Below are positions 14,491-34,394 of a stretch of 64,000 nucleotides of DNA, in pieces. How positions within the stretch are numbered: the first letter of the stretch is position 1; each line of letters opens with the position of its first letter. Where the stretch lies: assembly GCA_003153935.1 (NCBI GenBank), contig PMCA01000005.1:83210-147209 (forward strand). The letters run 5' to 3'. Source of the DNA: Elusimicrobiota bacterium (lineage in GTDB: Bacteria > CAYTYR01 > UBA6262). A model generated the notes under the pieces. The model saw nothing but the letters and a program-made list of their open reading frames with translations, was not told the origin of the DNA and ran no database searches. Position numbers and translations under genes: made by a program.

Positions 14491-15522
14491 ATGCAATATG
14501 TGATCCTCAAGAAAGTTAATTTTGACGATTTTATCACCGCCCTGGCTGCGCAGGAGAAGGTAGTCGGCCCGGTGGCGCGGGGTTATGATAATTTTTCCTT
14601 CCAGGAAGTCAAATCTGGTAAAGAAATATCCATAAAATATATTCCTACCATCCTGCCCCCCAAGAAATACTTCATGCCCCAGCGGGAAAAACTGATCGAA
14701 TTCGACAAGAGCCAGAATAAATTCGAGGCCGTGCTGGAATATGACAAAGTGGTGATTTTCGGTATCCATACCTGCGACCTGGCTGGCATCCAGTGCCTGA
14801 ACATGGTTTTTTCCGACAAGCCAAAGGATATTAATTACCTGGTGCGCAAGAACAAACTGCTGATCATCGGCCTGGAATGCAACGTTTACTGCGACCAGTA
14901 CGCCAGCTGTAAAGTTGTCGATAACCACCTGCCCAACGGCGGTTATGACCTGTTCTTTACCGAGCTCCCTGATTCCTTTATCGTGCACGTTAATACGCTC
15001 CGCGGCGATGAACTGATAGAAAAGACCCGGCTGTTCAACCCGGCTGAAAAGATTCACCTGGACCAGCTGGAAGAGGTCCGGAAGAAGAAACGGGAGATCT
15101 TCAAGGATGAGGTCAAGATCGGCCACCATGAGCTCTCCAAGCTTTTTGACCGGGCCTATGACAGCAAGGTCTGGGAGGACCTGGACAAGCGCTGTGTCGC
15201 TTGCGGCAATTGTACTAATGTTTGCCCCAGTTGCTATTGTTTCGACATATTGGATAATATGAACTTCGATTTTAACACCGGTGACCGCAGTCGTGGCTGG
15301 GATTCCTGCCAGAATGAGCCGTTCGCCAAGGTAGCCACCGGCGAAAATTTCCGCAAAACGCGCGGCGCCCGGCAGAGACACCGGTATTTCCGCAAATTTA
15401 AATATCCGGTGGAGCGCTACAGCCGGTATTTTTGCACCGGTTGCGGCCGTTGCACCCGGACCTGCATGGCTAAAATTAGTTTAAAAGAGACAATTAACGC
15501 GTTGGTGGACGAGCAGAAATGA
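14491..15522 (+). CDS. [NiFe] hydrogenase beta subunit (4Fe-4S electron transfer)
   Basis: About 343 residues from ATG 14491; an in-frame TTG 36 bases upstream is the -35 hexamer of the promoter and therefore unlikely as a start. The C-terminal half has two ferredoxin-like cysteine groups, CVACGNCTNVCPSCYC and CTGCGRCTRTC, separated by the conserved WDSCQNEPFAKVA stretch. This is the beta subunit of cytoplasmic group 3-type (sulfhydrogenase-like) hydrogenases, which carries electrons between the catalytic dimer and the flavin subunit. It begins the order beta-gamma-delta-alpha typical of group 3b. The next gene overlaps by 4 bases. Confidence 0.9.
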   Translation: MQYVILKKVNFDDFITALAAQEKVVGPVARGYDNFSFQEVKSGKEISIKYIPTILPPKKYFMPQREKLIEFDKSQNKFEAVLEYDKVVIFGIHTCDLAGIQCLNMVFSDKPKDINYLVRKNKLLIIGLECNVYCDQYASCKVVDNHLPNGGYDLFFTELPDSFIVHVNTLRGDELIEKTRLFNPAEKIHLDQLEEVRKKKREIFKDEVKIGHHELSKLFDRAYDSKVWEDLDKRCVACGNCTNVCPSCYCFDILDNMNFDFNTGDRSRGWDSCQNEPFAKVATGENFRKTRGARQRHRYFRKFKYPVERYSRYFCTGCGRCTRTCMAKISLKETINALVDEQK

Positions 15523-16358
15523 AAACCCTCAAACTGACAGATTCCGAATACCTGGTGAAGCAAGGCAAGATTATCCGGGCCAAGCAGATGACCAAACTGG
15601 AGAAATTCTTTGAAATTGCCCTGGCCGGCGGAGAATCCCTGGACCATGAACCGGGACAGTTCGTGATGGTGTCCATACCAGGAGTGGGGGAAGCGCCCTT
15701 ATCCATTTCTTCTTCCCCAACCAAGCGGGGGTCGTTCGAGATCGTTGCCCGCAGCGTGGGAAAAGTGACCAGCGCCCTGCATAAGCTCGATACAGGCGAT
15801 ACTATCGGTGTACGGGGTCCTTTTGGTAAAGGATTCCCGGTGCAGATATTGGAAGGGAATGACCTACTGGTGGTGGCAGCAGGGTTGGGATTAGTGCCAT
15901 TGCGTTCACTTATTAATTTTGTCATCGATAACCGGCGCGATTTCGGCAAGGTGAACATTTTACTGGGCTGCAAAACCCCGGAAGACATGCTTTTTGGCGA
16001 TGAAGTAGAGTCCTGGCGCAAACGCATCGACGTGAATTTTGATTATACCGTTGACCGCTGTTCCGACTCTGATTGGAAGGGCAACATAGGCTTGATAACG
16101 TCCCTGATACCCGGGGTAACAATTGACCCTGAACGAACCTTCGCTGCGGTTATCGGCCCGCCGGTCATGTATAAATATGTCATTATTGAACTGCTGAAAA
16201 AGAATATCCCGGAACGGCAGATACTGGTCTCTCTGGAACGCCACATGAAATGCGGCATTGGCAAGTGCGGCCACTGCCAGATACAGAATTATTACTGCTG
16301 TAAGGATGGCCCGGTATTTACTTATGAGCAGATCAAAAGTAAAAAGGAAGCCCTGTAG
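15519..16358 (+). CDS. [NiFe] hydrogenase gamma subunit (FAD/NAD(P)-binding)
   Basis: A 279-residue ferredoxin-NADP reductase-type flavoprotein. The flavin domain (about 15-105) includes GQFVMVSIPG and PLSISSSP; the nucleotide domain starts with VVAAGLGLVPLRSL near residue 118; the C-terminal HMKCGIGKCGHCQI plus a later Cys pair binds the [2Fe-2S] cluster, as in dihydroorotate dehydrogenase electron-transfer subunits. It exchanges electrons with NAD(P)(H) in the cytoplasm. The ATGA overlap with the beta gene indicates translational coupling. Cofactor preference (NADP versus NAD) is not decidable by eye. Confidence 0.9.
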   Translation: MKTLKLTDSEYLVKQGKIIRAKQMTKLEKFFEIALAGGESLDHEPGQFVMVSIPGVGEAPLSISSSPTKRGSFEIVARSVGKVTSALHKLDTGDTIGVRGPFGKGFPVQILEGNDLLVVAAGLGLVPLRSLINFVIDNRRDFGKVNILLGCKTPEDMLFGDEVESWRKRIDVNFDYTVDRCSDSDWKGNIGLITSLIPGVTIDPERTFAAVIGPPVMYKYVIIELLKKNIPERQILVSLERHMKCGIGKCGHCQIQNYYCCKDGPVFTYEQIKSKKEAL

Positions 16359-16368
16359 GTGATTAAAA

Positions 16369-17115
16369 ATGTCTAAACCCAAAGTAGCTTTTTTTGATTT
16401 TGCCTGTTGCGAGGGCTGTCAGCTGCAGATGGCCAATTTCGGCGAGGTATTGCTGGATATCCTGAACCTGGTGGACATCGTCACCTTCCGCGAGGTGATG
16501 AGCGAAAAGTCCGAGATCTACGACATTGCCATCATCGAGGGCAGTATTACCACTGCTCATGACACCGAGCGTATCAAGAACATCCGCGCTAAAGCCAAAG
16601 TTGTCATTGCTTACGGTTCTTGCGCTACCATCGGCGGGATCAACGGCATGAAGAATAAATTCGACCTTGAGGAGATAAAGAAATACGTTTACCGCGACGG
16701 TGCCAAACAGATAGAGACCCTGCCCACCCGAGCCGTGCACCAGGTAGTAAAAGTTGATTATTTCATCAATTGCTGTCCCGTCTATCCGCCGGAGATCCTC
16801 AAGGTCCTGAAATGCGTTATCGCCGGCATTCCTTACGCAGTGCCAGATTACGCGGTCTGCGTGGAATGCAAGCTTAACGAAAATGTGTGTATGTACGATA
16901 AGGGTATAACCTGCCTGGGACCGGTAACCAAAGCCGGGTGTAATTCTTGGTGCATCAATAACGGCAATATTTGTTACGGTTGCCGCGGGATGGTGACTAA
17001 TCCCGCTAAGAACGGGCAATTAGATATATTAGCCAGGCACAAGATACCGCTGGACTGGATCACCAATAAGCTGGATATGTATAACAAACCGAGGGAGTTA
17101 GATGAACAAAAGTAG
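16369..17115 (+). CDS. [NiFe] hydrogenase small (delta) subunit
   Basis: The 248-residue small subunit holds the Fe-S relay next to the NiFe site. The proximal cluster ligands begin with CCEGCQLQ near residue 13 and continue with the Cys in YGSCATIGG and NCCPVYPP; further cysteines (CVECKL, CMYDKG, CLGPVTKAGC, CYGCRG) fit two more clusters. The short form without a twin-arginine signal means a cytoplasmic enzyme. The ATG is 10 bases after the gamma stop, and the 3' end overlaps the large-subunit gene by 14 bases. Confidence 0.92.
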   Translation: MSKPKVAFFDFACCEGCQLQMANFGEVLLDILNLVDIVTFREVMSEKSEIYDIAIIEGSITTAHDTERIKNIRAKAKVVIAYGSCATIGGINGMKNKFDLEEIKKYVYRDGAKQIETLPTRAVHQVVKVDYFINCCPVYPPEILKVLKCVIAGIPYAVPDYAVCVECKLNENVCMYDKGITCLGPVTKAGCNSWCINNGNICYGCRGMVTNPAKNGQLDILARHKIPLDWITNKLDMYNKPRELDEQK

Positions 17116-18433
17116 GAATGTAAAGGTAAATGTCGAATATTTAACCCGGGTGGAGGGCCATGGCAACATTGTGGTCAACGTTAAGGATGGGAAACTGGAA
17201 GATTGCCGCCTGGATATAATAGAACCGCCCCGGTTCTTCGAGGGCATGCTGCGCGGCCGCTCTATTTTTGAGGCCCAGCATATTACCTCCCGGATCTGCG
17301 GTATCTGCGCCTGCGGTCACAGCCTGGCTTCGATCCAGGCTGGCGAAGACGCTCTGGGATTCGTTGCCAGCGAGCAAACCATCAGGTTGCGTAAACTGCT
17401 ACTGCACCAGGAAATACTGGACAGCCATATCCTGCACATATACCTGCTGGCCGCGCCTGACCTGTTGGGAGTGAAAAGCTTCGTGCCGCTGATCGACACC
17501 CATAACAAAGTGGTACGGCGCGCCTTACGCATGAAAAAAAATTGTAACAACATCTGCGATATACTGGTAGGTCGGCATGTTCATCCCATCTCCGCCATTG
17601 TCGGCGGTTTTACCAAGCTGCCTAAAGAAAAAGACCTGGATACCATGCTGGATATACTGAAGAGCATGCAGCCGGATATGGACGCTACTATCGAGCTGTT
17701 AGCGACTCTGAAATTTCCTGATTTCCAGCGGCCCACGGAATATGTCGCCCTGGTCAACGATACGGACGAATATCCGCTTTTGTCCGGCGAGATTGGCTCC
17801 ACTGATGGTTTAAAGCTTAACAAAAAAGATTATCTTAAGCTGACCAACGAATTCATGGTCCCGCTCTCCTCCGCCAAGCATACCAAGGCCAGCCGCAGTT
17901 CTTATATGGTCGGCGCCCTGGCGCGATTGAACCTGAATTTCAACAAGCTTAATCTTAAAGCCAAAAAAGCGGCAGATCTGTTGCAATTCAAACCGGTTTG
18001 CACCAATCCCTATCTCAACACCGTAGCCCAGGCCATCGAAAGTGTGCATTGCCTGGAGGAATCAATAACCCTGATAGAGCATTTTAAAGCCAACGGGTTA
18101 AAGCAGGAAGAAGCCATTGTGGTGGGCCTGAATGAAAAAGGCACTATCCCGGTCCGGGCCGGTAAGGGCGTCGGCGCTGTGGAAGTTCCCAGGGGTATAC
18201 TTTTTCATGACTATGAAATAGATAAGGACGGTAAGATCATAAATGCTAATTGCATCATACCTACCGGACAGAACCTGGGCAATGTGGAAGATGACATGCG
18301 CAAGCTGGTGCCGGAGATACTGGATAAAAGCGACGAAGAGATCACCCTGATGATGGAGATGCTAGTGCGTGCCTATGACCCGTGCATTTCCTGCTCAACC
18401 CACTTTTTAGATGTCAAATTCACTAACCGCTGA
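17102..18433 (+). CDS. [NiFe] hydrogenase large (alpha) catalytic subunit
   Basis: The 443-residue catalytic subunit. The four Ni-ligating cysteines are present: RICGICACGH (Cys66, Cys69) and DPCISCSTH (Cys428, Cys431), along with the RVEGHG motif near the N-terminus. A 9-residue tail follows His434, the position at which the maturation endopeptidase cuts after nickel insertion, so this is a processed, nickel-containing type rather than a degenerate homologue. The tail-coding end overlaps the protease gene. With the beta, gamma and delta subunits it should form a cytoplasmic NAD(P)-linked, bidirectional hydrogenase (group 3b-like by gene order). Confidence 0.95.
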   Translation: MNKSRNVKVNVEYLTRVEGHGNIVVNVKDGKLEDCRLDIIEPPRFFEGMLRGRSIFEAQHITSRICGICACGHSLASIQAGEDALGFVASEQTIRLRKLLLHQEILDSHILHIYLLAAPDLLGVKSFVPLIDTHNKVVRRALRMKKNCNNICDILVGRHVHPISAIVGGFTKLPKEKDLDTMLDILKSMQPDMDATIELLATLKFPDFQRPTEYVALVNDTDEYPLLSGEIGSTDGLKLNKKDYLKLTNEFMVPLSSAKHTKASRSSYMVGALARLNLNFNKLNLKAKKAADLLQFKPVCTNPYLNTVAQAIESVHCLEESITLIEHFKANGLKQEEAIVVGLNEKGTIPVRAGKGVGAVEVPRGILFHDYEIDKDGKIINANCIIPTGQNLGNVEDDMRKLVPEILDKSDEEITLMMEMLVRAYDPCISCSTHFLDVKFTNR

Positions 18434-18896
18434 TATCCGCATACTATTAAAAACAATCAATCACAAAACGGCGATCATCTGTGTTGGCAACACGTTGCGT
18501 GCTGACGACGGAGTAGGCCCGTACCTGGCGGAACACCTGGCCACGGATACGAACCTGATGATAATTAACGCCGGCACTGTACCGGAAAACCACCTGGATG
18601 AGGTGGTAAGGTTTAAGCCGGACCTGGTCATCATTTTTGATGCCGCCGATTTTCGCGGCACCCCGGGCGAGGTCAGGATAGTGAATGAGAAAACTGTCCC
18701 CGTGGCGACCCTAAGCACGCACAACATCCCGATGAGCGTTATTTATCACCTGTTGCAGCAAGATACGGAGGCGCCGGTGATATTTGTCGGGATACAACCT
18801 AAGAGCCTGGATATGCAGGAAGGCTTGTCCATAGAAGTAAAAGCCGCCGCTGATGACATACTGATATATATCAAAAAGGGATACAAACATGCATGA
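18411..18896 (+). CDS. Hydrogenase maturation endopeptidase (HycI/HyaD family)
   Basis: A 161-residue M52-type peptidase. VGNTLRADDGVGP near residue 24, IIFDAADFRGTPGE near residue 64 and LSTHNIPMS near residue 92 supply the family's acidic and His residues that contact nickel in the large-subunit precursor. It removes the C-terminal tail of the alpha subunit encoded just upstream; the two genes overlap by 23 bases, in line with dedicated processing. It overlaps the HypA-like gene by 8 bases. Confidence 0.92.
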   Translation: MSNSLTADIRILLKTINHKTAIICVGNTLRADDGVGPYLAEHLATDTNLMIINAGTVPENHLDEVVRFKPDLVIIFDAADFRGTPGEVRIVNEKTVPVATLSTHNIPMSVIYHLLQQDTEAPVIFVGIQPKSLDMQEGLSIEVKAAADDILIYIKKGYKHA

Positions 18897-19131
18897 AATG
18901 CACCTGTTACGAGAACTATTTGACGACCTGCTGAAGTTGGCCAATAAGCAACAGGCCCGGAAAGTCACCAAGGTCTACCTGCGCATGGGTAATTTTACCG
19001 AGATCAACGAAGACATACTGCGTTATTTCTTTAAAGAACAGGAACAGGGCACTATCCTGGAGAACGCGGTGCTGCAAATTGACCGCAGCGCCACCCGGGA
19101 ACTGACCCTGGTATCCTTTGATTGTGAGTAA
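18889..19131 (+). CDS. HypA-like nickel chaperone lacking the zinc finger
   Basis: Only 80 residues against about 115 in HypA. The nickel-binding MHE N-terminus and the first helix and strands are intact (MHEMHLLRELFDDLL, VTKVYLRMGNFTEI). The CxxC...CxxC zinc-ribbon insert is absent: residues after LQIDRSA pass straight into RELTLVSFDCE, which resembles HypA's last strand. It looks like a neat loss of the inserted domain, leaving the nickel fold closed. The following gene starts 6 bases after the stop, so no hidden remainder exists downstream. Role: nickel delivery or a cut-down adaptor for the alpha subunit (inference). No HypB is seen in the window. Confidence 0.8.
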   Translation: MHEMHLLRELFDDLLKLANKQQARKVTKVYLRMGNFTEINEDILRYFFKEQEQGTILENAVLQIDRSATRELTLVSFDCE

Positions 19132-19136
19132 AAACT

Positions 19137-20438
19137 ATGTGTTACGCCATACCCGGTAAAGTAGAATCCATAAACGAAAAAACGGTCACCGTCAGTTATT
19201 TTGGTGAGACCAAAAAGGCCATCAATGAACTGCATGACCTGAGACCCGGTGATTATATCTACGCCCAGGGCGGATATGTCATAGAAAAAATACCGGCTGA
19301 GCAAGCGGAAGACATCCTGCAAACCTGGAAAGAAGTGTTTTTTGACCTGCAGGACCTGGACCTGCGGCTTTCCCGCCTGGACCTGCAGGATAAGAATATA
19401 GACCCGGGACTGCTCAGGATACTGGACCGGGCGCTGGAAGAAAAACCGCTTAAAAAAGAAGAACTGTTATATCTGCTGGACCTGAAGGGGCACCCGGAAC
19501 AGGAGTTGCTATTCAAGGCGGCTAACTTCTTGCGCCAGAAGTATCACAAAAACGCCTGCTGTGTGCATGGCATAATAGAAATTTCCAATTATTGTCGTCG
19601 TAATTGCGCTTATTGCGGCATCGCCGGCCATGTAAAGGGACTGGAACGCTATCGGATGACTCCCGGCGAGATCGTTGGGGCGTCCCTGGAAGCTATTGAA
19701 AAATACGGTTTCCGGGCGCTTGTTTTGCAGAGCGGTGAGGATCCCGGCTATACTATCAAGGAACTGGCGGGCGTAATTAAAGAGATCAAGGCTAAGGCGG
19801 CGGTCCTGATATTCATCAGTTTTGGCGAAATGCCGGAGAAAGACCTGGTGGAGCTTTATCAGGCCGGGGCCCGCGGTTTGCTCTTACGGTTTGAAACCTC
19901 CAATCCCATATTATATGATAAATTGCATACCGGCCATAGTCTGGAATCGCGGCTGGATACGCTCAGGGCGGCGCGCCGGCTGGGTTATGTGATCATCACC
20001 GGTGGCCTGCTGGGCCTGCCCGGACAAACCTATGTTGATATATTGAACGATCTATACCTGACCAAGGAGCTGGGAGCGACCATGTTCAGTTTTGGCCCTC
20101 TTATTCCGCATCCGTTGACGGAATTGGCTACAGCGCCTATGCCCAGGGAGAAAGAGATCTTAAAAGTACTGGCGCTGGCCCGGTTCATTGACCCGCAGAA
20201 CGCCAATGTGGTGGTAACCACTGGTTTCGAAACTTTAAGCCCGACCGGACGGAAGCGCGGTTTACTGGCCGGAGCTAATTCAGTAATGCTAAACCTGACG
20301 CCGATCAAATACCGACGTTTATATTCTATCTATCCGAACCGCGCGCACGAGCAAGAGGGGATCGCGGAACAGGTAAGAGATACTGTTTCTCTGCTCCAAT
20401 CCATAGGTCGCGCGCCTACGGATCTGGGTGTTACTTAA
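19137..20438 (+). CDS. HypC fused to a HydE-like radical-SAM protein
   Basis: The 433 residues contain two modules. Residues 1 to about 75 are a full HypC: MCYAIPGKV with Cys2, the residue that holds the Fe(CN)2CO unit in HypC-HypD, and GDYIYAQGGYVIEKIPAEQA. After a charged linker (75-100) comes a HydE-type radical-SAM barrel with CRRNCAYCG (Cys153, Cys157, Cys160) for the SAM-bound [4Fe-4S] cluster and QSGEDPG near residue 200. It is clearly homologous to the stand-alone HydE at 30328 but lacks the C-terminal CX7CX2C auxiliary-cluster cysteines, reading IYPNRAHEQEG there. It ends the [NiFe] operon, 6 bases after the HypA-like gene. Working on the iron site of the [NiFe] enzyme is my inference; the fusion itself is direct. 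Confidence 0.88.
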   Translation: MCYAIPGKVESINEKTVTVSYFGETKKAINELHDLRPGDYIYAQGGYVIEKIPAEQAEDILQTWKEVFFDLQDLDLRLSRLDLQDKNIDPGLLRILDRALEEKPLKKEELLYLLDLKGHPEQELLFKAANFLRQKYHKNACCVHGIIEISNYCRRNCAYCGIAGHVKGLERYRMTPGEIVGASLEAIEKYGFRALVLQSGEDPGYTIKELAGVIKEIKAKAAVLIFISFGEMPEKDLVELYQAGARGLLLRFETSNPILYDKLHTGHSLESRLDTLRAARRLGYVIITGGLLGLPGQTYVDILNDLYLTKELGATMFSFGPLIPHPLTELATAPMPREKEILKVLALARFIDPQNANVVVTTGFETLSPTGRKRGLLAGANSVMLNLTPIKYRRLYSIYPNRAHEQEGIAEQVRDTVSLLQSIGRAPTDLGVT

Positions 20439-20470
20439 AGGTTATTAGGATTTTTTTTAATCTTTTAAGT
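20433..20470 (+). terminator. Possible terminator after the HypC-HydE fusion gene
   Basis: ACTTAAAGG (20433-20441, over the stop codon) can pair with CTTTTAAGT (20462-20470) with one G-U pair, enclosing a run of eight T (20451-20458). The T run lies in the loop rather than after the stem, so efficient intrinsic termination is doubtful. The 3' arm touches the Rex operator. Confidence 0.3.
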
Positions 20471-20482
20471 GAAATATTTCAC
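20469..20482. promoter_or_regulatory. Rex operator
   Basis: GTGAAATATTTCAC is a perfect 14-base palindrome matching the Rex consensus GTGAA-N4-TTCAC, with AA following as in TTCACAA. It ends 7 bases before the -35 of the promoter driving rex. The position suggests autoregulation of rex and redox control of the whole downstream [FeFe] hydrogenase operon. Confidence 0.8.
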
Positions 20483-20489
20483 AAAAGAC

Positions 20490-20552: not shown

Positions 20553-21185
20553 ATGATAACAGCCAAGAATTGCGTAGCCCGGCTCTCCCGGTACAAAAGC
20601 GCTTTAAACCGGTTCAAAACCCTGGGTTTCGTGAAGGTGTTTTCGGATAATCTGGCTGACGCCGTGGGCGCCACTTCTTCCCAGGTCAGGAAAGATTTTT
20701 CCGTGTTTGGCATTTCCGGCTCCAAGCGCGGCGGTTACAAGATAGACGAGTTGATCGAGAAGATCAATAATATCCTGGGTAAGAACGAGGTCCAGCAGGT
20801 GATCATCGTCGGCGCCGGCAATATCGGCTCGGCTTTAATGAACTTCAAAGGTTTCGAGAAGGAAGGCATGAAGATCGTCGCCTGTTTCGATACTGATCCT
20901 ACCAAAGTTAACCGCTTGGGCAACATCCAGGTCTTACCAATCGAGGAACTAAAAAGCTTTGTATTGAATAATAAGATAAAGATAGGCATTATTGCAGTGC
21001 CGGATAACGCGGCGCCAGGAGTAATGGAAGCGTTATTGGAAGCGGGCATTAAAGGGGTGCTTAATTTCGCGCCTATACAACTGAAAGCCCCGGAAGAATG
21101 CGTTGTCAACAACGTTAATATTGAAAGCGAATTGGAGAACGTCATCTATTACGTCAACGCTCTGCAAAAGTCGAGAAAAACCTGA
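20553..21185 (+). CDS. rex: Redox-sensing transcriptional repressor Rex
   Basis: The 210 residues comprise an N-terminal winged helix (about 5-75) with VARLSRYKSAL and SSQVRKDFSVFGISGSKRGG, then a Rossmann domain starting VIIVGAGNIGSALMNF (about 82-97). It dimerises through the C-terminal helix. Rex leaves DNA when NADH/NAD+ rises and so derepresses fermentative and hydrogenase genes. It is the first gene of the operon with a matching palindrome upstream. The stop TGA overlaps the next ATG, so kinase translation is coupled to it. Confidence 0.95.
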   Translation: MITAKNCVARLSRYKSALNRFKTLGFVKVFSDNLADAVGATSSQVRKDFSVFGISGSKRGGYKIDELIEKINNILGKNEVQQVIIVGAGNIGSALMNFKGFEKEGMKIVACFDTDPTKVNRLGNIQVLPIEELKSFVLNNKIKIGIIAVPDNAAPGVMEALLEAGIKGVLNFAPIQLKAPEECVVNNVNIESELENVIYYVNALQKSRKT

Positions 21186-28560: not shown

Positions 28561-28938
28561 ATGAAGAAAATACTTATCATCGATGACGATCCTGATTTTA
28601 TTGACGCCTGCCGGAACATGCTGGAAGCGGTGGAGTATGAAGTGGACTGTGAAAGTCGCGCTGACCGGGCCCTGGCCAAGATAGATTCTTTCCGGCCGGA
28701 GCTGGTCCTGCTGGATATATTAATGGATAATAGACTGGCCGGGTTTGAGATCGCCGAGACCCTGGCAAGAGTCGAGACCTACCGGGGGATTGCGGTCATT
28801 TTCCTCACCGGTTACTTTATGAGGACAGGCCTGAGGGAACTGCAGAACGAGGTGCTAAGTAAATGGCGGAACGTGAAATCTGTCCTGGATAAGCCGGTAA
28901 AGCCGGCCAAGCTGCTGGAAACTATCAGGAAAATATAG
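28561..28938 (+). CDS. Stand-alone receiver-domain protein (first of two)
   Basis: A 125-residue single receiver domain: acidic pocket DDDP at the N-terminus, phospho-acceptor Asp in LVLLDILMD (about residue 51) and Lys in VLDKPVKP (about 111). There is no output domain. The stretch before the Lys (KWRNVKSVLDKPVKP) differs from the usual GADDYLTKPF and is shared with the second receiver at 31385 (DWLPVKTVLEKPIKP), so the two are relatives. It follows hydC without a gap. A link to the kinase at 21185 is inferred from operon membership. Confidence 0.85.
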   Translation: MKKILIIDDDPDFIDACRNMLEAVEYEVDCESRADRALAKIDSFRPELVLLDILMDNRLAGFEIAETLARVETYRGIAVIFLTGYFMRTGLRELQNEVLSKWRNVKSVLDKPVKPAKLLETIRKI

Positions 28939-28949
28939 AGGTAAAAATT

Positions 28950-30341
28950 ATGAAATATATTGATGAAGCAAAAATAAATAACCTTTTAAAGGACGCGGCG
29001 CGCACCGCTCCCGCTGAGCTCGATCGGATCCTGGTCAAGACCAGGACCCTGCAGCGGCTGACCCTGGCGGAGACTGCCGCCTTGCTCGCGGTAGAGGAGC
29101 CGGAGCGGTTAAAGAGTATCTTTGCGGCGGCAGCTTATGTCAAAGAGCATATTTACGGCAGCCGTATAGTATTATTCGCGCCCTTATATATCAGTAATAT
29201 CTGTGCTAACTGCTGCGCCTATTGTTCGTTCAACGCCAAGAACAAAATGATCGAAAGAAAAGCGCTGACGGTAGAGGAAATAAAGGAACAGGTCCAGTGG
29301 CTGCTGCAAAGAGGGCATAAGCGCATCCTGATGGTGGCCGGCGAAGCCGCGCCCGCGGGCAAGACCAATATCGAATATTACGTGGAATCGATCAAAGCGG
29401 TTTATTCCGTGAATGTCGGACCGCACCGGATAAAAAGAGTGAACATTAATTGTGCGCCTTTGACCGTGGATGAATTCAAGCAGTTGAAAGCGGCGGGCAT
29501 AGGCACTTTCCAGATCTTCCAGGAAACCTACCATGAAGGAACCTATCGCCAGGTACATACCAGCGGCCCGAAAAAAGACCCGGATAACCGGATTGACGCA
29601 GTGGATCGGGCCTTTACCGCCGGGATCGACGACGTAGGCATCGGCGTTCTCTTGGGTTTATACGATTACCGTTTTGAGATCCTGGCCATGCTGATGCACA
29701 TCGAGCACCTGGAGGAAAGATTCAAAGTTGGGCCGCATACCATTTCCGTGCCGCGGATAGAACCGGCGGTGGGCTCCGATTTGAGCAGGAACGTGCCGTA
29801 TAAATTAACTGACGATAATTTCCGGAAGCTGGTCGCGGTACTGCGGCTGGCCGTGCCCTACACGGGGATTATCCTGACCACCCGCGAGACCGCGGCGATG
29901 AGGGATGAGCTATTCAGTTTGGGCGTGTCGCAAGTCAGCGCCGAATCCCGGACCTCTCCCGGCGGCTACACCGAAGGAGACGAGGCTCTGGTCAAGGACA
30001 CCCAATTTATTTTGAATGATAAGCGTTCTTTGGATGAAATTATCGGTTCGCTGATCAGCAAAAAATTCATACCCAGCTTCTGCGCCGCCTGCTACCGCAA
30101 GGCGCGCACGGGAGAAACTTTCATGAACCTGGCCAAGCCGGGGACGATCAAGGGTAAATGCAGCATTAACGCGTTGATAACCCTGAAAGAATACCTGGAT
30201 GACTTCGCTTCTCCGGAGGTTAAACAAGCCGGATATAAACTGATCGAGGAATGCAGTCGTGAATTTGACGAAAAAACCAAGGCGGAACTGGCCAAATTTT
30301 TCGCGGCGGTGGACAGAGGTACCAGGGATGAATACGTCTAA
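28950..30341 (+). CDS. hydG: [FeFe] hydrogenase maturase HydG (tyrosine lyase)
   Basis: A 463-residue radical-SAM enzyme that cleaves tyrosine to p-cresol and dehydroglycine and yields the CO and CN ligands of the H-cluster on an Fe-Cys synthon. The SAM cluster motif is CANCCAYC (Cys85, Cys89, Cys92). The C-terminal auxiliary cluster site is complete as C-x2-C-x22-C (Cys378, Cys381, Cys404), which distinguishes HydG from the related tyrosine lyase ThiH. The ATG is 11 bases after the receiver gene; the end overlaps hydE by 14 bases. Confidence 0.95.
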   Translation: MKYIDEAKINNLLKDAARTAPAELDRILVKTRTLQRLTLAETAALLAVEEPERLKSIFAAAAYVKEHIYGSRIVLFAPLYISNICANCCAYCSFNAKNKMIERKALTVEEIKEQVQWLLQRGHKRILMVAGEAAPAGKTNIEYYVESIKAVYSVNVGPHRIKRVNINCAPLTVDEFKQLKAAGIGTFQIFQETYHEGTYRQVHTSGPKKDPDNRIDAVDRAFTAGIDDVGIGVLLGLYDYRFEILAMLMHIEHLEERFKVGPHTISVPRIEPAVGSDLSRNVPYKLTDDNFRKLVAVLRLAVPYTGIILTTRETAAMRDELFSLGVSQVSAESRTSPGGYTEGDEALVKDTQFILNDKRSLDEIIGSLISKKFIPSFCAACYRKARTGETFMNLAKPGTIKGKCSINALITLKEYLDDFASPEVKQAGYKLIEECSREFDEKTKAELAKFFAAVDRGTRDEYV

Positions 30342-31410
30342 ACTTAAGAGTACTTTGAAAAGAGTGGCCGCGGCTAACCGGCCGGAACTGGCCGATCTGG
30401 AATATTTACTGGGCCTGACCGATGACCGGGAATTGGCGCTGGTCTACCAGTATGCCGATGAAGTCCGCGCGCAATACTGCGGCTCCGGTATCTGGTTGCG
30501 CGGCGTGGTTGAGTTTTCCAGTTATTGCCGCAACAATTGTTTATATTGCGGGCTTAACGCCGGTAACAAGGACCTGCCGCGCTACCGGCTGAACGCTGAA
30601 GAGATCCTGGCCGCGGCGGAGCAGATAGCCGGCGGCGCCATTAAGACTATCGTTTTGCAGTCAGGCGAAGATCCTGAGCTGGATCCGCTCTGGCTGAGAG
30701 ACCTGATCATTAAAATAAAGAGCCGCTTCGACCTGGCAGTAACTTTGTCCGTAGGAGAGCGCAGCCGGCAGGATTATTACCTGTGGCGGGCAGTGGGTGC
30801 GGACCGCTATTTATTGAAGATCGAGACCAGCGACCGGAAGCTTTATGAATCTTTGCACCCGGACATGAGTTTCACCCAGCGCCTGCGCTGCCTGGGCGAA
30901 TTAAAGGACCTTGGTTACCAGGTTGGCTCCGGCAATATTGTCGGACTTAAGGGCCAAAGCCTGAAACAGATAGCCAGGGACATTCTCTTCTTCCAGGAAA
31001 ATGATTTTGATATGATCGGCATCGGGCCTTTCATCCCTCACCAGGCGACCGCGCTGGCGGCGGAGTCCAAAGCCGACCTGCAGCTCACTTTGAAAACCCT
31101 GGCCCTGACCAGGATAGTTACCAAGAACACTTACCTGCCGGCGACTACGGCCCTGGGCAGTCTGGGCGCTGATTACCGCCGGGAAGGCTTGAAAGCCGGG
31201 GCCAATGTGCTCATGCCGAATTTTACGCCGCAGCCCTACCGTAAATATTATGAGATATATCCTGGCAAGCGCTGTATTAATGAAAATGCCGGAGACTGCG
31301 GGCCCTGCATGGAAATAATGGCCGGACAGATCAACCGCAATATAGATTATTCCGTTGGACATACATTAAAAAGAGGAGGGGAACATGGCCAAAAAGGTAC
31401 TAATTATTGA
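30328..31410 (+). CDS. hydE: [FeFe] hydrogenase maturase HydE (radical SAM)
   Basis: 360 residues from ATG 30328, which has a CAGGG site and overlaps the hydG stop; the open frame runs further upstream only inside hydG. SAM cluster ligands are CRNNCLYCG (Cys67, Cys71, Cys74). The C-terminal CX7CX2C auxiliary site typical of many HydE proteins is present (Cys316, Cys324, Cys327). HydE processes the HydG product towards the diiron subcluster. This is the canonical copy; the HydE-like domain at 19137 is the divergent one. The 3' end overlaps the second receiver gene by 26 bases. Confidence 0.94.
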   Translation: MNTSKLKSTLKRVAAANRPELADLEYLLGLTDDRELALVYQYADEVRAQYCGSGIWLRGVVEFSSYCRNNCLYCGLNAGNKDLPRYRLNAEEILAAAEQIAGGAIKTIVLQSGEDPELDPLWLRDLIIKIKSRFDLAVTLSVGERSRQDYYLWRAVGADRYLLKIETSDRKLYESLHPDMSFTQRLRCLGELKDLGYQVGSGNIVGLKGQSLKQIARDILFFQENDFDMIGIGPFIPHQATALAAESKADLQLTLKTLALTRIVTKNTYLPATTALGSLGADYRREGLKAGANVLMPNFTPQPYRKYYEIYPGKRCINENAGDCGPCMEIMAGQINRNIDYSVGHTLKRGGEHGQKGTNY

Positions 31411-31768
31411 CGATGACGCCGATTATCGCGAAGCGACCGTAAACATGCTGGAAGCCAAAGGTTACGAAGTGAGCACCGCCGAAAATAGCGAGCAGGGTTT
31501 CGCCGCCGCCCTGGCGAAACAGCCGGACATTATCCTGTTGGACGTGATGATGACCCATAAATCGGAGGGCTTTGACCTGGCCCGCAGCTTGAAGAAAGAA
31601 GAAAAGACCAAGAACATTCCGGTGATAATTGTTTCCGGGGTCAGGAAAGAGATGAACCTGCCTTTTGGTTTTGAACCGGACAGTGACTGGCTGCCGGTCA
31701 AGACGGTGCTGGAAAAACCGATCAAGCCGGATATTTTATTAAAAACTATAGAAGAAAATACGAAGTAA
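31385..31768 (+). CDS. Stand-alone receiver-domain protein (second of two)
   Basis: A 127-residue receiver domain with DDDADY, phospho-acceptor Asp in IILLDVMMTH (about residue 53) and LEKPIKPD. It shares the altered segment before the conserved Lys with the receiver at 28561. No output domain. The ATG lies within the end of hydE, with AGAGGAGGGG giving a strong ribosome site. Two receiver proteins and one kinase in the same operon suggest a small phosphorelay or allosteric control of the hydrogenase complex (inference). Confidence 0.85.
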   Translation: MAKKVLIIDDDADYREATVNMLEAKGYEVSTAENSEQGFAAALAKQPDIILLDVMMTHKSEGFDLARSLKKEEKTKNIPVIIVSGVRKEMNLPFGFEPDSDWLPVKTVLEKPIKPDILLKTIEENTK

Positions 31769-31789: not shown

Positions 31790-33172
31790 GTGAAAAACCG
31801 TGTAGAAAAAGATGCGCTGGGTGAAAAACAACTGCCGGAGAACGCCTTCTGGGGCATTCATACCCAGCGCGCGCTGGAGAATTTTAATATCGGCACCGCT
31901 AAAGTTAACCCGGCTTTGATACAGGCGTTAATCCTGGTTAAAAAAGCGGCCTGCCAGAGCAACCTGGAGTTAGGATTCCTGCCAACAGTAAAAGCCCAGG
32001 CCATTATAGCGGCCTGCGATGAAATACTGGCGGGGAAACTGACCGATCAGTTCCCCCTGGATGCCCTGCAGGGCGGCGCAGGTACATCTACCAACATGAA
32101 CGTGAACGAGGTTATTGCCAACCGGGCCAGTGAACTGTCCGGCGGCAAACCTGGCGATTATTTGATCAATCCACTGGCTGACGTTAACCTGCACCAATCC
32201 ACGAACGATGTTTATCCTACGGCCCTGAAAGTAGCGGTTATCTTCGGACTTAAGGAATTGAGCCAGGCGGCCGCGCAGTTACAGGGAGAATTCCAGAAAA
32301 AAGAGAAAGAATTCGCGGAGATCGTCAAGATCGGCCGCACGGAAATGCAGGAAGCGGTACCCCTGACCCTGGGAGCGGAGTTTTCCGCTTTTGCGGAAGC
32401 GGTAGCGCGGGACCGCTGGCGCACGTTCAAGTGCGAAGAACGGATACGCGTCGTAAATATGGGCGGTACGGCGGTGGGCACCGGTTTGGCCGCGCCGAGA
32501 AAATATATATTTTTGGTTATAGATAAATTACGCGACCTGACGGGTTTAGGGATCTCCCGCGCTGAGAACGGCGTGGACCAGACCGCCAACAGTGACAGCT
32601 TCGTGGAAGTATCGGGCATCCTGAAGGCCCAGGCGGTCAACCTGGTCAAGATCAGCAATGACCTGAGATTGCTGAACCTGCTGGGTGAAATAGAATTACC
32701 CAAAGTGCAGGTCGGCTCTTCCATCATGCCGGGTAAAATAAATCCAGTCATACTTGAAGCCGCTATCCAGGCCGGATTAAAGGCGATCGCGGCTGACAGC
32801 CTGGTAACCGCGGCTGCGGCCCGGAGCAGTTTGCAGATAAATGAATTTTTACCCTTGCTGGCGGATAGTTTACTGGAAGAGATTGAGCTATTAACCAGGA
32901 CCTGCCTGATGTTGGCCAAACATATTCCAGGTATAACAGCCAATCCGGTTAAATGCCTGGAATACCTGGAAAATAGCCCGACGCTGGTCACCGCCTTTCT
33001 CCCGGTGCTCGGTTATGACCGGGCCGGCGTACTGCTGGCGGAATGGCAAAAAGACCGTAAGCTTAGTTTCCGGGAATTCTTAAACCAAAAATTGGGCCGA
33101 GAACTGGTAGATAAGACCCTGTCCCCGAATAATCTGACCGCTTTGGGTTACCCAGATGAAAAAAACTCCTAA
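31790..33172 (+). CDS. aspA: Aspartate ammonia-lyase (fumarase/aspartase superfamily)
   Basis: The 460 residues match the aspartase/class II fumarase fold: LHQSTNDVYPTALK near residue 135 and the superfamily signature GSSIMPGKINPVI near residue 310, whose Ser is the catalytic base. Aspartase is favoured over fumarase by its place among hyd maturation genes, where aspA is a recurrent neighbour; it would release ammonia and fumarate from aspartate. GTG at 31790 is the start (no in-frame ATG nearby). It overlaps hydF by 17 bases. A role in supplying nitrogen for the azadithiolate bridge is a hypothesis. Confidence 0.85.
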   Translation: MKNRVEKDALGEKQLPENAFWGIHTQRALENFNIGTAKVNPALIQALILVKKAACQSNLELGFLPTVKAQAIIAACDEILAGKLTDQFPLDALQGGAGTSTNMNVNEVIANRASELSGGKPGDYLINPLADVNLHQSTNDVYPTALKVAVIFGLKELSQAAAQLQGEFQKKEKEFAEIVKIGRTEMQEAVPLTLGAEFSAFAEAVARDRWRTFKCEERIRVVNMGGTAVGTGLAAPRKYIFLVIDKLRDLTGLGISRAENGVDQTANSDSFVEVSGILKAQAVNLVKISNDLRLLNLLGEIELPKVQVGSSIMPGKINPVILEAAIQAGLKAIAADSLVTAAAARSSLQINEFLPLLADSLLEEIELLTRTCLMLAKHIPGITANPVKCLEYLENSPTLVTAFLPVLGYDRAGVLLAEWQKDRKLSFREFLNQKLGRELVDKTLSPNNLTALGYPDEKNS

Positions 33173-34394
33173 ATCATTAAGATTGCATATCGGTATTTTT
33201 GGCCGGACCAATGTCGGCAAATCAAGTTTCCTGAATTTGCTGGCCGGGCAGGAGGTCGCCATTATCTCTCCCGTACCGGGAACCACCACGGATGTCGTCG
33301 AAAAAACCATGGAACTGTTGCCGGTCGGGCCGGTAGTGTTTTTGGATACCGCCGGAGTTGATGATGTCTCACAGTTGGCGGAACAGAGGATAAAGAAATC
33401 CCATAAAATATTTGACCGGTCCGATGTGATCCTGCTGATAGTGGAACCGGATTCCTGGTCCTCGTTTGAAGATGAGATCTTAGCGGAGGCGGAACAGCGC
33501 GGCCTGCCCGGCATAATTATCATAAATAAAACAGATTTGAAAAATCCCAGCGAAGAATTCCTGAAAAAGATAACCGGCAAGGCTGATAAAATGATCTTAA
33601 CCTCCAGCCTGGGGACAGACCGGCGTGAAGCGACTTTAAAGGACCTGAAGAAATATTTATTAGAATCCGCCCCGGATGAATTTCTTAACCCGGCTCCTCT
33701 CGTCGGTGATCTGTTGAAACCGGGCGGGGTGATAGTCCTGGTCGTTCCGATCGACCTGGAAGCTCCCAAGGGCCGTTTGATCCTGCCGCAGGTCCAAACC
33801 ATCAGGGATGCGCTGGATAATGACGCGGCGGCCCTGGTGGTCAAGGAAAGGGAATATGCCAGCGCCCTGGCTAATCTCAAAAGTCCTCCGGACCTGGCTG
33901 TATGCGACTCCCAGGTAGTCCTGAAAATGGTAGCGGATACGCCTAAAAATATAAAATGCACGACTTTTTCCATTCTTTTTGCCCGTCAACGCGGAGACCT
34001 GATTGAGGCGGCCCGCGGGGTAAGCGCGATAAAAAAGTTAAAAGCTGGGGATAAGATCCTGATCGCGGAGGCCTGCAGCCATCATCCGGTGGAGGATGAT
34101 ATCGCGCGGGTGAAGATACCGCGCTGGCTCAGGCAATACGTGGGCGGGGACCTGCAGATCGATGTGACCGCCGGGCACGATTACCCGGATGATCTGAGAA
34201 AATATAAACTGGTCATTCATTGCGGCGGCTGTATGATAAATAAACGCCAGATGCTTGCCCGGATCCAAAGAGCCAGGGAGCAGGGCGTGCCGATCACCAA
34301 TTACGGTATGTGCATTTCATTTGTTCAAGGAGTTATTGAACGGGTTTTGGAACCTTTCCCAGCCGCTCTCGACGCATACCGATCCTCATTATGA
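33156..34394 (+). CDS. hydF: [FeFe] hydrogenase maturation GTPase HydF
   Basis: A 412-residue three-domain scaffold. GTPase domain: P-loop GRTNVGKS (16-23), the switch region with PGTTTD, DTAG, and NKTD. Dimerisation domain: about 190-270. Fe-S domain: C-x-H (Cys307, His309) with CGGC (Cys356, Cys359), which holds the [4Fe-4S] cluster carrying the diiron precursor. It delivers that precursor to HydA. It overlaps both neighbours (aspA and the glycosylase gene), so the tail of the operon is tightly coupled. Confidence 0.95.
   Translation: MKKTPKSLRLHIGIFGRTNVGKSSFLNLLAGQEVAIISPVPGTTTDVVEKTMELLPVGPVVFLDTAGVDDVSQLAEQRIKKSHKIFDRSDVILLIVEPDSWSSFEDEILAEAEQRGLPGIIIINKTDLKNPSEEFLKKITGKADKMILTSSLGTDRREATLKDLKKYLLESAPDEFLNPAPLVGDLLKPGGVIVLVVPIDLEAPKGRLILPQVQTIRDALDNDAAALVVKEREYASALANLKSPPDLAVCDSQVVLKMVADTPKNIKCTTFSILFARQRGDLIEAARGVSAIKKLKAGDKILIAEACSHHPVEDDIARVKIPRWLRQYVGGDLQIDVTAGHDYPDDLRKYKLVIHCGGCMINKRQMLARIQRAREQGVPITNYGMCISFVQGVIERVLEPFPAALDAYRSSL

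Follow-up and report, generated by a model that had tools for sequence, protein, structure and literature searches.

The stretch of DNA analysed here (the window, 64,000 nucleotides from an Elusimicrobiota bacterium) carries on its forward strand a [NiFe] hydrogenase operon in the order bet-gam-ssu-lsu-hycI-hypA-fusion, the genes of which are tightly packed and in several cases overlap. It encodes an iron-sulfur beta subunit of the sulfhydrogenase beta-like type (14491..15522, start inferred), an FAD/NAD(P)-binding gamma subunit (15519..16358), a sulfhydrogenase delta-like [NiFe] hydrogenase small subunit (16369..17115) and a group-3b-type [NiFe] large subunit (17102..18433), which has the motifs RICGIC and DPCISCSTH and a C-terminal extension, FLDVKFTNR. 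The large subunit resembles that of P. furiosus sulfhydrogenase I (SHI) and carries a tail for cleavage by HycI, the [NiFe] hydrogenase maturation protease encoded next (18411..18896; TIGR00142, 128 bits, above cut-off). There follows a mini-HypA of 80 residues (18889..19131), which comprises the N-terminal half of HypA (MHE...) and lacks the zinc-finger half. Five bases after hypA starts the last gene of the operon (19137..20438), encoding a HypC-HydE-like radical SAM fusion.

The reading frame of the fusion runs without interruption from an ATG at 19137 to a TAA at 20438 and encodes 433 residues. HypC occupies residues 1-64 (Pfam HupF_HypC, 49.1 bits; cut-off 28.5) and is joined by a linker (about 65-96) to a HydE-type barrel (97-424), within which residues 147-304 match Pfam Radical_SAM (66.2 bits). 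The NCBIfam HydE model (TIGR03956) scores 229.5 bits over residues 97-424, slightly below its equivalog cut-off of 254.6, against which two relatives of the fusion score 268 and 304 bits. Both Cys2 and the CxxxCxxC motif (Cys153/157/160) are present as initially claimed. An AlphaFold2 model of the protein has a mean pLDDT of 88.6, and in Foldseek the barrel superposes on T. maritima HydE with a TM-score of 0.93. A frameshift or assembly join at the junction, which the initial annotation had put forward for checking, is excluded, since codon-position GC is consistent over HypC, linker and barrel and since full-length homologues in unrelated assemblies, 50-69% identical to it, run across the junction (two genomes of the same family, G019, and records labelled Omnitrophota, Margulisbacteria or Elusimicrobia). 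The HypC-HydE fusion is real, and the proposal that such a fusion lies in a [NiFe] operon is borne out by the uninterrupted frame, the domain matches and the gene order.

Downstream in the same window lies an [FeFe] hydrogenase operon that includes, also on the forward strand, HydG, the tyrosine-cleaving enzyme that produces CO and cyanide in the iron-iron hydrogenase pathway (28950..30341; auxiliary cysteines C378, C381 and C404), a canonical HydE (30328..31410; 330.5 bits), which is a paralogue of the fusion barrel, and the HydF GTPase (33156..34394). This HydG is the only one above cut-off in the genome of the window and so would need to serve both enzymes. Two response-regulator-like proteins of similar size (28561-28938 and 31385-31768) flank HydG and HydE, and an aspartase/fumarase-family gene, aspA-like by inspection, lies between HydE and HydF (31790-33172); aspA in hyd operons has been reported as an aid to [FeFe] maturation (PMC11736057). 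Between the two operons, a Rex-operator-like palindrome, AAGTGAAATATTTCACAA (20467-20484), precedes a rex gene (20553-21185) beside a promoter-like TTGACA/TATCTT; matches to the palindrome and promoter-like patterns across the whole window are near chance, and scans of the window for promoters and terminators returned about chance numbers.

The fusion was identified in 69 genomes, namely a first set of 13 and 59 Omnitrophota, with three common to both, under record names that include Omnitrophota, Elusimicrobia and Margulisbacteria; most are incomplete draft metagenome-assembled genomes (MAGs). The Omnitrophota came from a survey of 384 genomes of the phylum of one Omnitrophota record (G061), the 59 with the fusion comprising 42 full-length and 17 short-linker forms. 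The latter, whose matches start near residue 123, were considered as HypC-less proteins, a reading rejected on alignment to the window protein, which covers residues 1-432 with a shorter linker; one of them, scanned with Pfam, keeps the HypC domain above cut-off. In the tree, 67 fusions and 42 HydEs fall on separate sides (97/96 and 99/95), such that the fusions form a single clade (97/96) beside, and not inside, true HydE.

The fusions are marked by several invariant features. In addition to CxxxCxxC (67/67) and the HypC N-terminal MC..PG with Cys2 (all 66 scored, plus one with a GTG start), all 67 have C141, C142 and H144 in the barrel, the HydE counterparts of which are V/I51, often H52, and R54 (T. 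maritima numbering). These pocket changes, i.e. R54 to His and V51/H52 to Cys-Cys, suggest that the substrate of the fusion barrel may differ from that of HydE. In the HypC domain, His51 of the VH.G motif (E. coli numbering) is replaced by Gln (Gln44) in 66 of 66 fusions and is retained in 12 of 12 canonical HypCs. None of the 67 fusions has the auxiliary CX7CX2C motif, a lack that the initial annotation had noted for the window protein; loss of the motif is a weak argument for divergence, however, and is not diagnostic, because 14 of 39 true HydEs also lack it, and in these alignments C141, C142, H144 and Gln44 are the better marks. In 25 of 27 fusion loci the neighbouring HypA is shortened to an 80-residue half that has no CxxC, and such a zinc-finger-less protein of about 80 residues is possibly a minimal nickel chaperone; loci of the group-4 type can also carry full-length HypA, and two loci have a HypB-like gene.

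HypD, HypE and HypF are regarded as indispensable core proteins of [NiFe] assembly. No HypD was detected in any of the 69 fusion genomes, including the first 13, for which G004, G040 and E. coli served as positive controls. Among the 384 Omnitrophota genomes HypD occurs in 138, the fusion in 59 and both in none (Fisher p 3e-13, shared ancestry uncorrected). HypE and HypF were never above cut-off in the 13 fusion genomes tested; distant HypE-like and HypF-like partial matches, short or far below cut-off, occur in every genome tested, as they do in all 14 control genomes, some of which are without HypD. G061, a single contig of 1.28 Mb, has no HypD; it encodes the fusion, HydG and a group-4-like large subunit with four cysteines. 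A conserved unknown neighbour that might stand in for HypD was sought beside the fusion and none was found, the recurrent neighbours being, by inspection, subunits of membrane [NiFe] hydrogenase, antiporter and ferredoxin type. The fusion is no accessory to the Hyp machinery, occurring as it does only where HypD is absent, a point that the initial annotation missed along with the link to HydG. Gene content strongly supports its acting as a replacement for HypDEF.

What the fusion travels with is HydG, which was detected in 65 of the 69 genomes (the four others belonging to a set composed mostly of incomplete MAGs), including 11 of the first 13 and, above cut-off, 57 of the 59 Omnitrophota (odds ratio 64, phylogeny uncorrected). 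Of 70 loci, many of them running to a contig edge, 36 have HydG no more than 3 kb from the fusion, and whether it is upstream or downstream varies between lineages; in G146 (L184:9645-12395) a single ORF of 917 residues encodes HypC-HydE-HydG. The [FeFe] hydrogenase domain PF02906 was not detected in seven of 13 fusion genomes, six of which retain HydG, among them the single-contig chromosome of G061. The HydG SAM cysteines are kept in 55 of 55 aligned sequences, as are the first and third auxiliary cysteines wherever that region is covered. Fusion-adjacent HydGs derive from several lineages, and placing them on the HydG tree takes nine or more changes of label; given a single fusion clade, this fits repeated pairing with whichever HydG was at hand. 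A dedicated HydG paralogue was considered as a general rule and rejected, the fusion-adjacent HydGs being intermixed with HydE-adjacent ones across lineages. In L179, L183, L185, L186, L192 and other loci an auxiliary variant, SFCTAGYRCGRTG, replaces CX2C in HydG and also occurs next to a true HydE (L020); the variant CTAGYRC, common beside fusions, is not specific to them as it also adjoins a true HydE.

With respect to the target enzymes, 12 of 13 fusion genomes tested contain a match to a [NiFe] large subunit, the partner expected in the initial annotation; the one without, G064, is a fragmented draft MAG. The large subunits retain all four cofactor cysteines and, in common with P. furiosus SHI, the PRG and PT..N active-site motifs. 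Fusion loci or genomes represented by L198, L203, L205-L207 and L104 also have group-4-like membrane [NiFe] hydrogenases with the four cysteines kept, so that hydrogenases of more than one group may be matured in this way.

The fusion, its operon, the absence of HypD, HypE and HypF, the association with HydG and the four-cysteine targets can all be read directly from the sequences. A single chain that unites HypC with HydE, encoded near HydG and a [NiFe] operon in genomes without HypD, HypE or HypF, is most simply explained if the iron unit is supplied by a different path. We consider it likely that [NiFe] maturation in these uncultured bacteria is HypDEF-independent, with the fusion as its central maturase and HydG supplying the Fe-CO/CN unit, the chemistry being a deduction from sequence. 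That all the CO and cyanide of the [NiFe] site would derive from tyrosine via HydG, with the fusion replacing HypDEF entirely and holding iron on Cys2, is on balance probable. In the proposed route, HydG would cleave tyrosine to give an iron unit with CO and cyanide; the HydE-like domain would take up this unit and detach or remodel it by SAM chemistry; the tethered HypC would hold it on Cys2 and insert it into the apo-large subunit; nickel would be added by HypA, in its full or mini form and in some cases together with HypB; and HycI would cleave the C-terminal tail. HydG makes Fe(CO)2(CN)(Cys) (complex B) from tyrosine and hands it directly to HydE (PMC11736057), and Cys2 of HypC has been proposed as an iron-unit ligand in HypCD (PMC10847431). 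The transfer of complex B to the fusion, the path to the final ligands and the loading of Cys2 are the three steps that we infer. Since HydG gives Fe(CO)2(CN) and not Fe(CN)2CO, the route requires either exchange of a CO for a second cyanide or an atypical cofactor; our guess for the final ligand set is that the HydE-like domain performs radical chemistry and that HydG then provides a second cyanide. The suggestion in the initial annotation that the fusion is a candidate for the CO step, or for remodelling of the iron unit, thus retains a plausible bearing on that step; however, because the fusion occurs only where HypD is absent and travels with HydG, the CO probably comes from HydG, and the HydE-like domain would receive or remodel the unit.

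The same observations admit other readings. HydG might merely free CO and cyanide, with the fusion as a HypCD-replacing scaffold that holds iron between Cys2 and Cys141/Cys142, complex B never being transferred. The invariance of C141 and C142 in 67 of 67 fusions and their absence from HydE accord with such a scaffold, as does the HydG association, and a two-domain cysteine site would mimic that proposed for HypC Cys2 and HypD Cys41 (PMC10847431); the scaffold reading gives no reason, however, for the fusion to have kept a complete SAM motif and the fold of HydE, and the known chemistry is direct transfer from HydG to HydE (PMC11736057), such that we regard this arrangement as unlikely. The 2:1 ratio of CO to cyanide in the HydG synthon (PMC11736057) also raises the prospect that the target enzymes hold an atypical Fe(CO)2(CN) in place of Fe(CN)2CO, a different product that is compatible with the main model; conservation of PRG, PT..N and the four cysteines with P. 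furiosus SHI makes this rather improbable.

Much less credence attaches to the fusion as an accessory to some HypD/E/F-like machinery that has diverged too far to be recognised, or as a supplier of CO alone with cyanide coming from elsewhere. The distant HypE-like and HypF-like partial matches in every genome might seem to suggest as much, yet they also occur in the controls, including HypD-less ones; no conserved unknown substitute for HypD was found beside the fusion, and HydG gives cyanide as well as CO. That most of the genomes are draft MAGs might suggest that hypDEF is hidden in assembly gaps and that the fusion is unrelated to maturation of these enzymes; the absence of HypD from 69 of 69 genomes, one a single-contig chromosome, contradicts this, and its detection in 138 genomes that belong to the same phylum and are of like quality leaves the explanation with almost no chance of being correct.

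The HypDEF-independent route thus proposed shares with the HypABCDEF system a HypC domain with Cys2, HypA, the HycI protease and a four-cysteine large subunit, but differs in that HypD (69/69), HypE and HypF (13/13 tested) are missing, in the His51 to Gln change and linkage of its HypC to a radical-SAM barrel, and in the zinc-less mini-HypA of its group-3b operons. With HydE/HydF/HydG maturation it has in common HydG, the HydE fold, the SAM cluster motif and probably use of the HydG iron synthon, whereas its target is a [NiFe] enzyme, its clade is separate from HydE with the R54/V51/H52 pocket changed, and an [FeFe] hydrogenase domain went undetected in seven of 13 genomes. Compared with T. 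maritima HydE (PDB 5few, 7o1o and 8qmk), the barrel has a TM-score of about 0.9 and about 40% identity; HydE lacks a HypC domain, has Arg54 where the fusion has His, and possesses the auxiliary-cluster cysteines. HypX likewise is devoted to CO supply in [NiFe] maturation; it makes CO from formyl-THF when conditions are oxic and is believed to pass it to HypCD (PMC12134894). In the fusion route the proposed source is instead tyrosine, by way of HydG, and there is no HypD. The component families are known, and the implied pathway is new: with HypD/E/F missing, and some half of the tested genomes lacking the [FeFe] target, it belongs to neither known system. In the open-access literature, preprints excluded, we found no earlier description of the fusion, in line with the initial annotation, and one may nonetheless exist; published genome accounts of two fusion-bearing lineages do not mention maturation.

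The overall results bear on the origin of the CO ligand in [NiFe] maturation, which is unsettled. A lineage that apparently lacks HypD, HypE and HypF nominates tyrosine, via HydG, as the source of CO and cyanide and the fusion as the carrier, making the ligand-origin question testable by labelling, at least for the fusion lineage. Such proteins risk being annotated plainly as HydE. If the proposed route is correct, the two hydrogenase maturation chemistries would be linked via one shared iron synthon.
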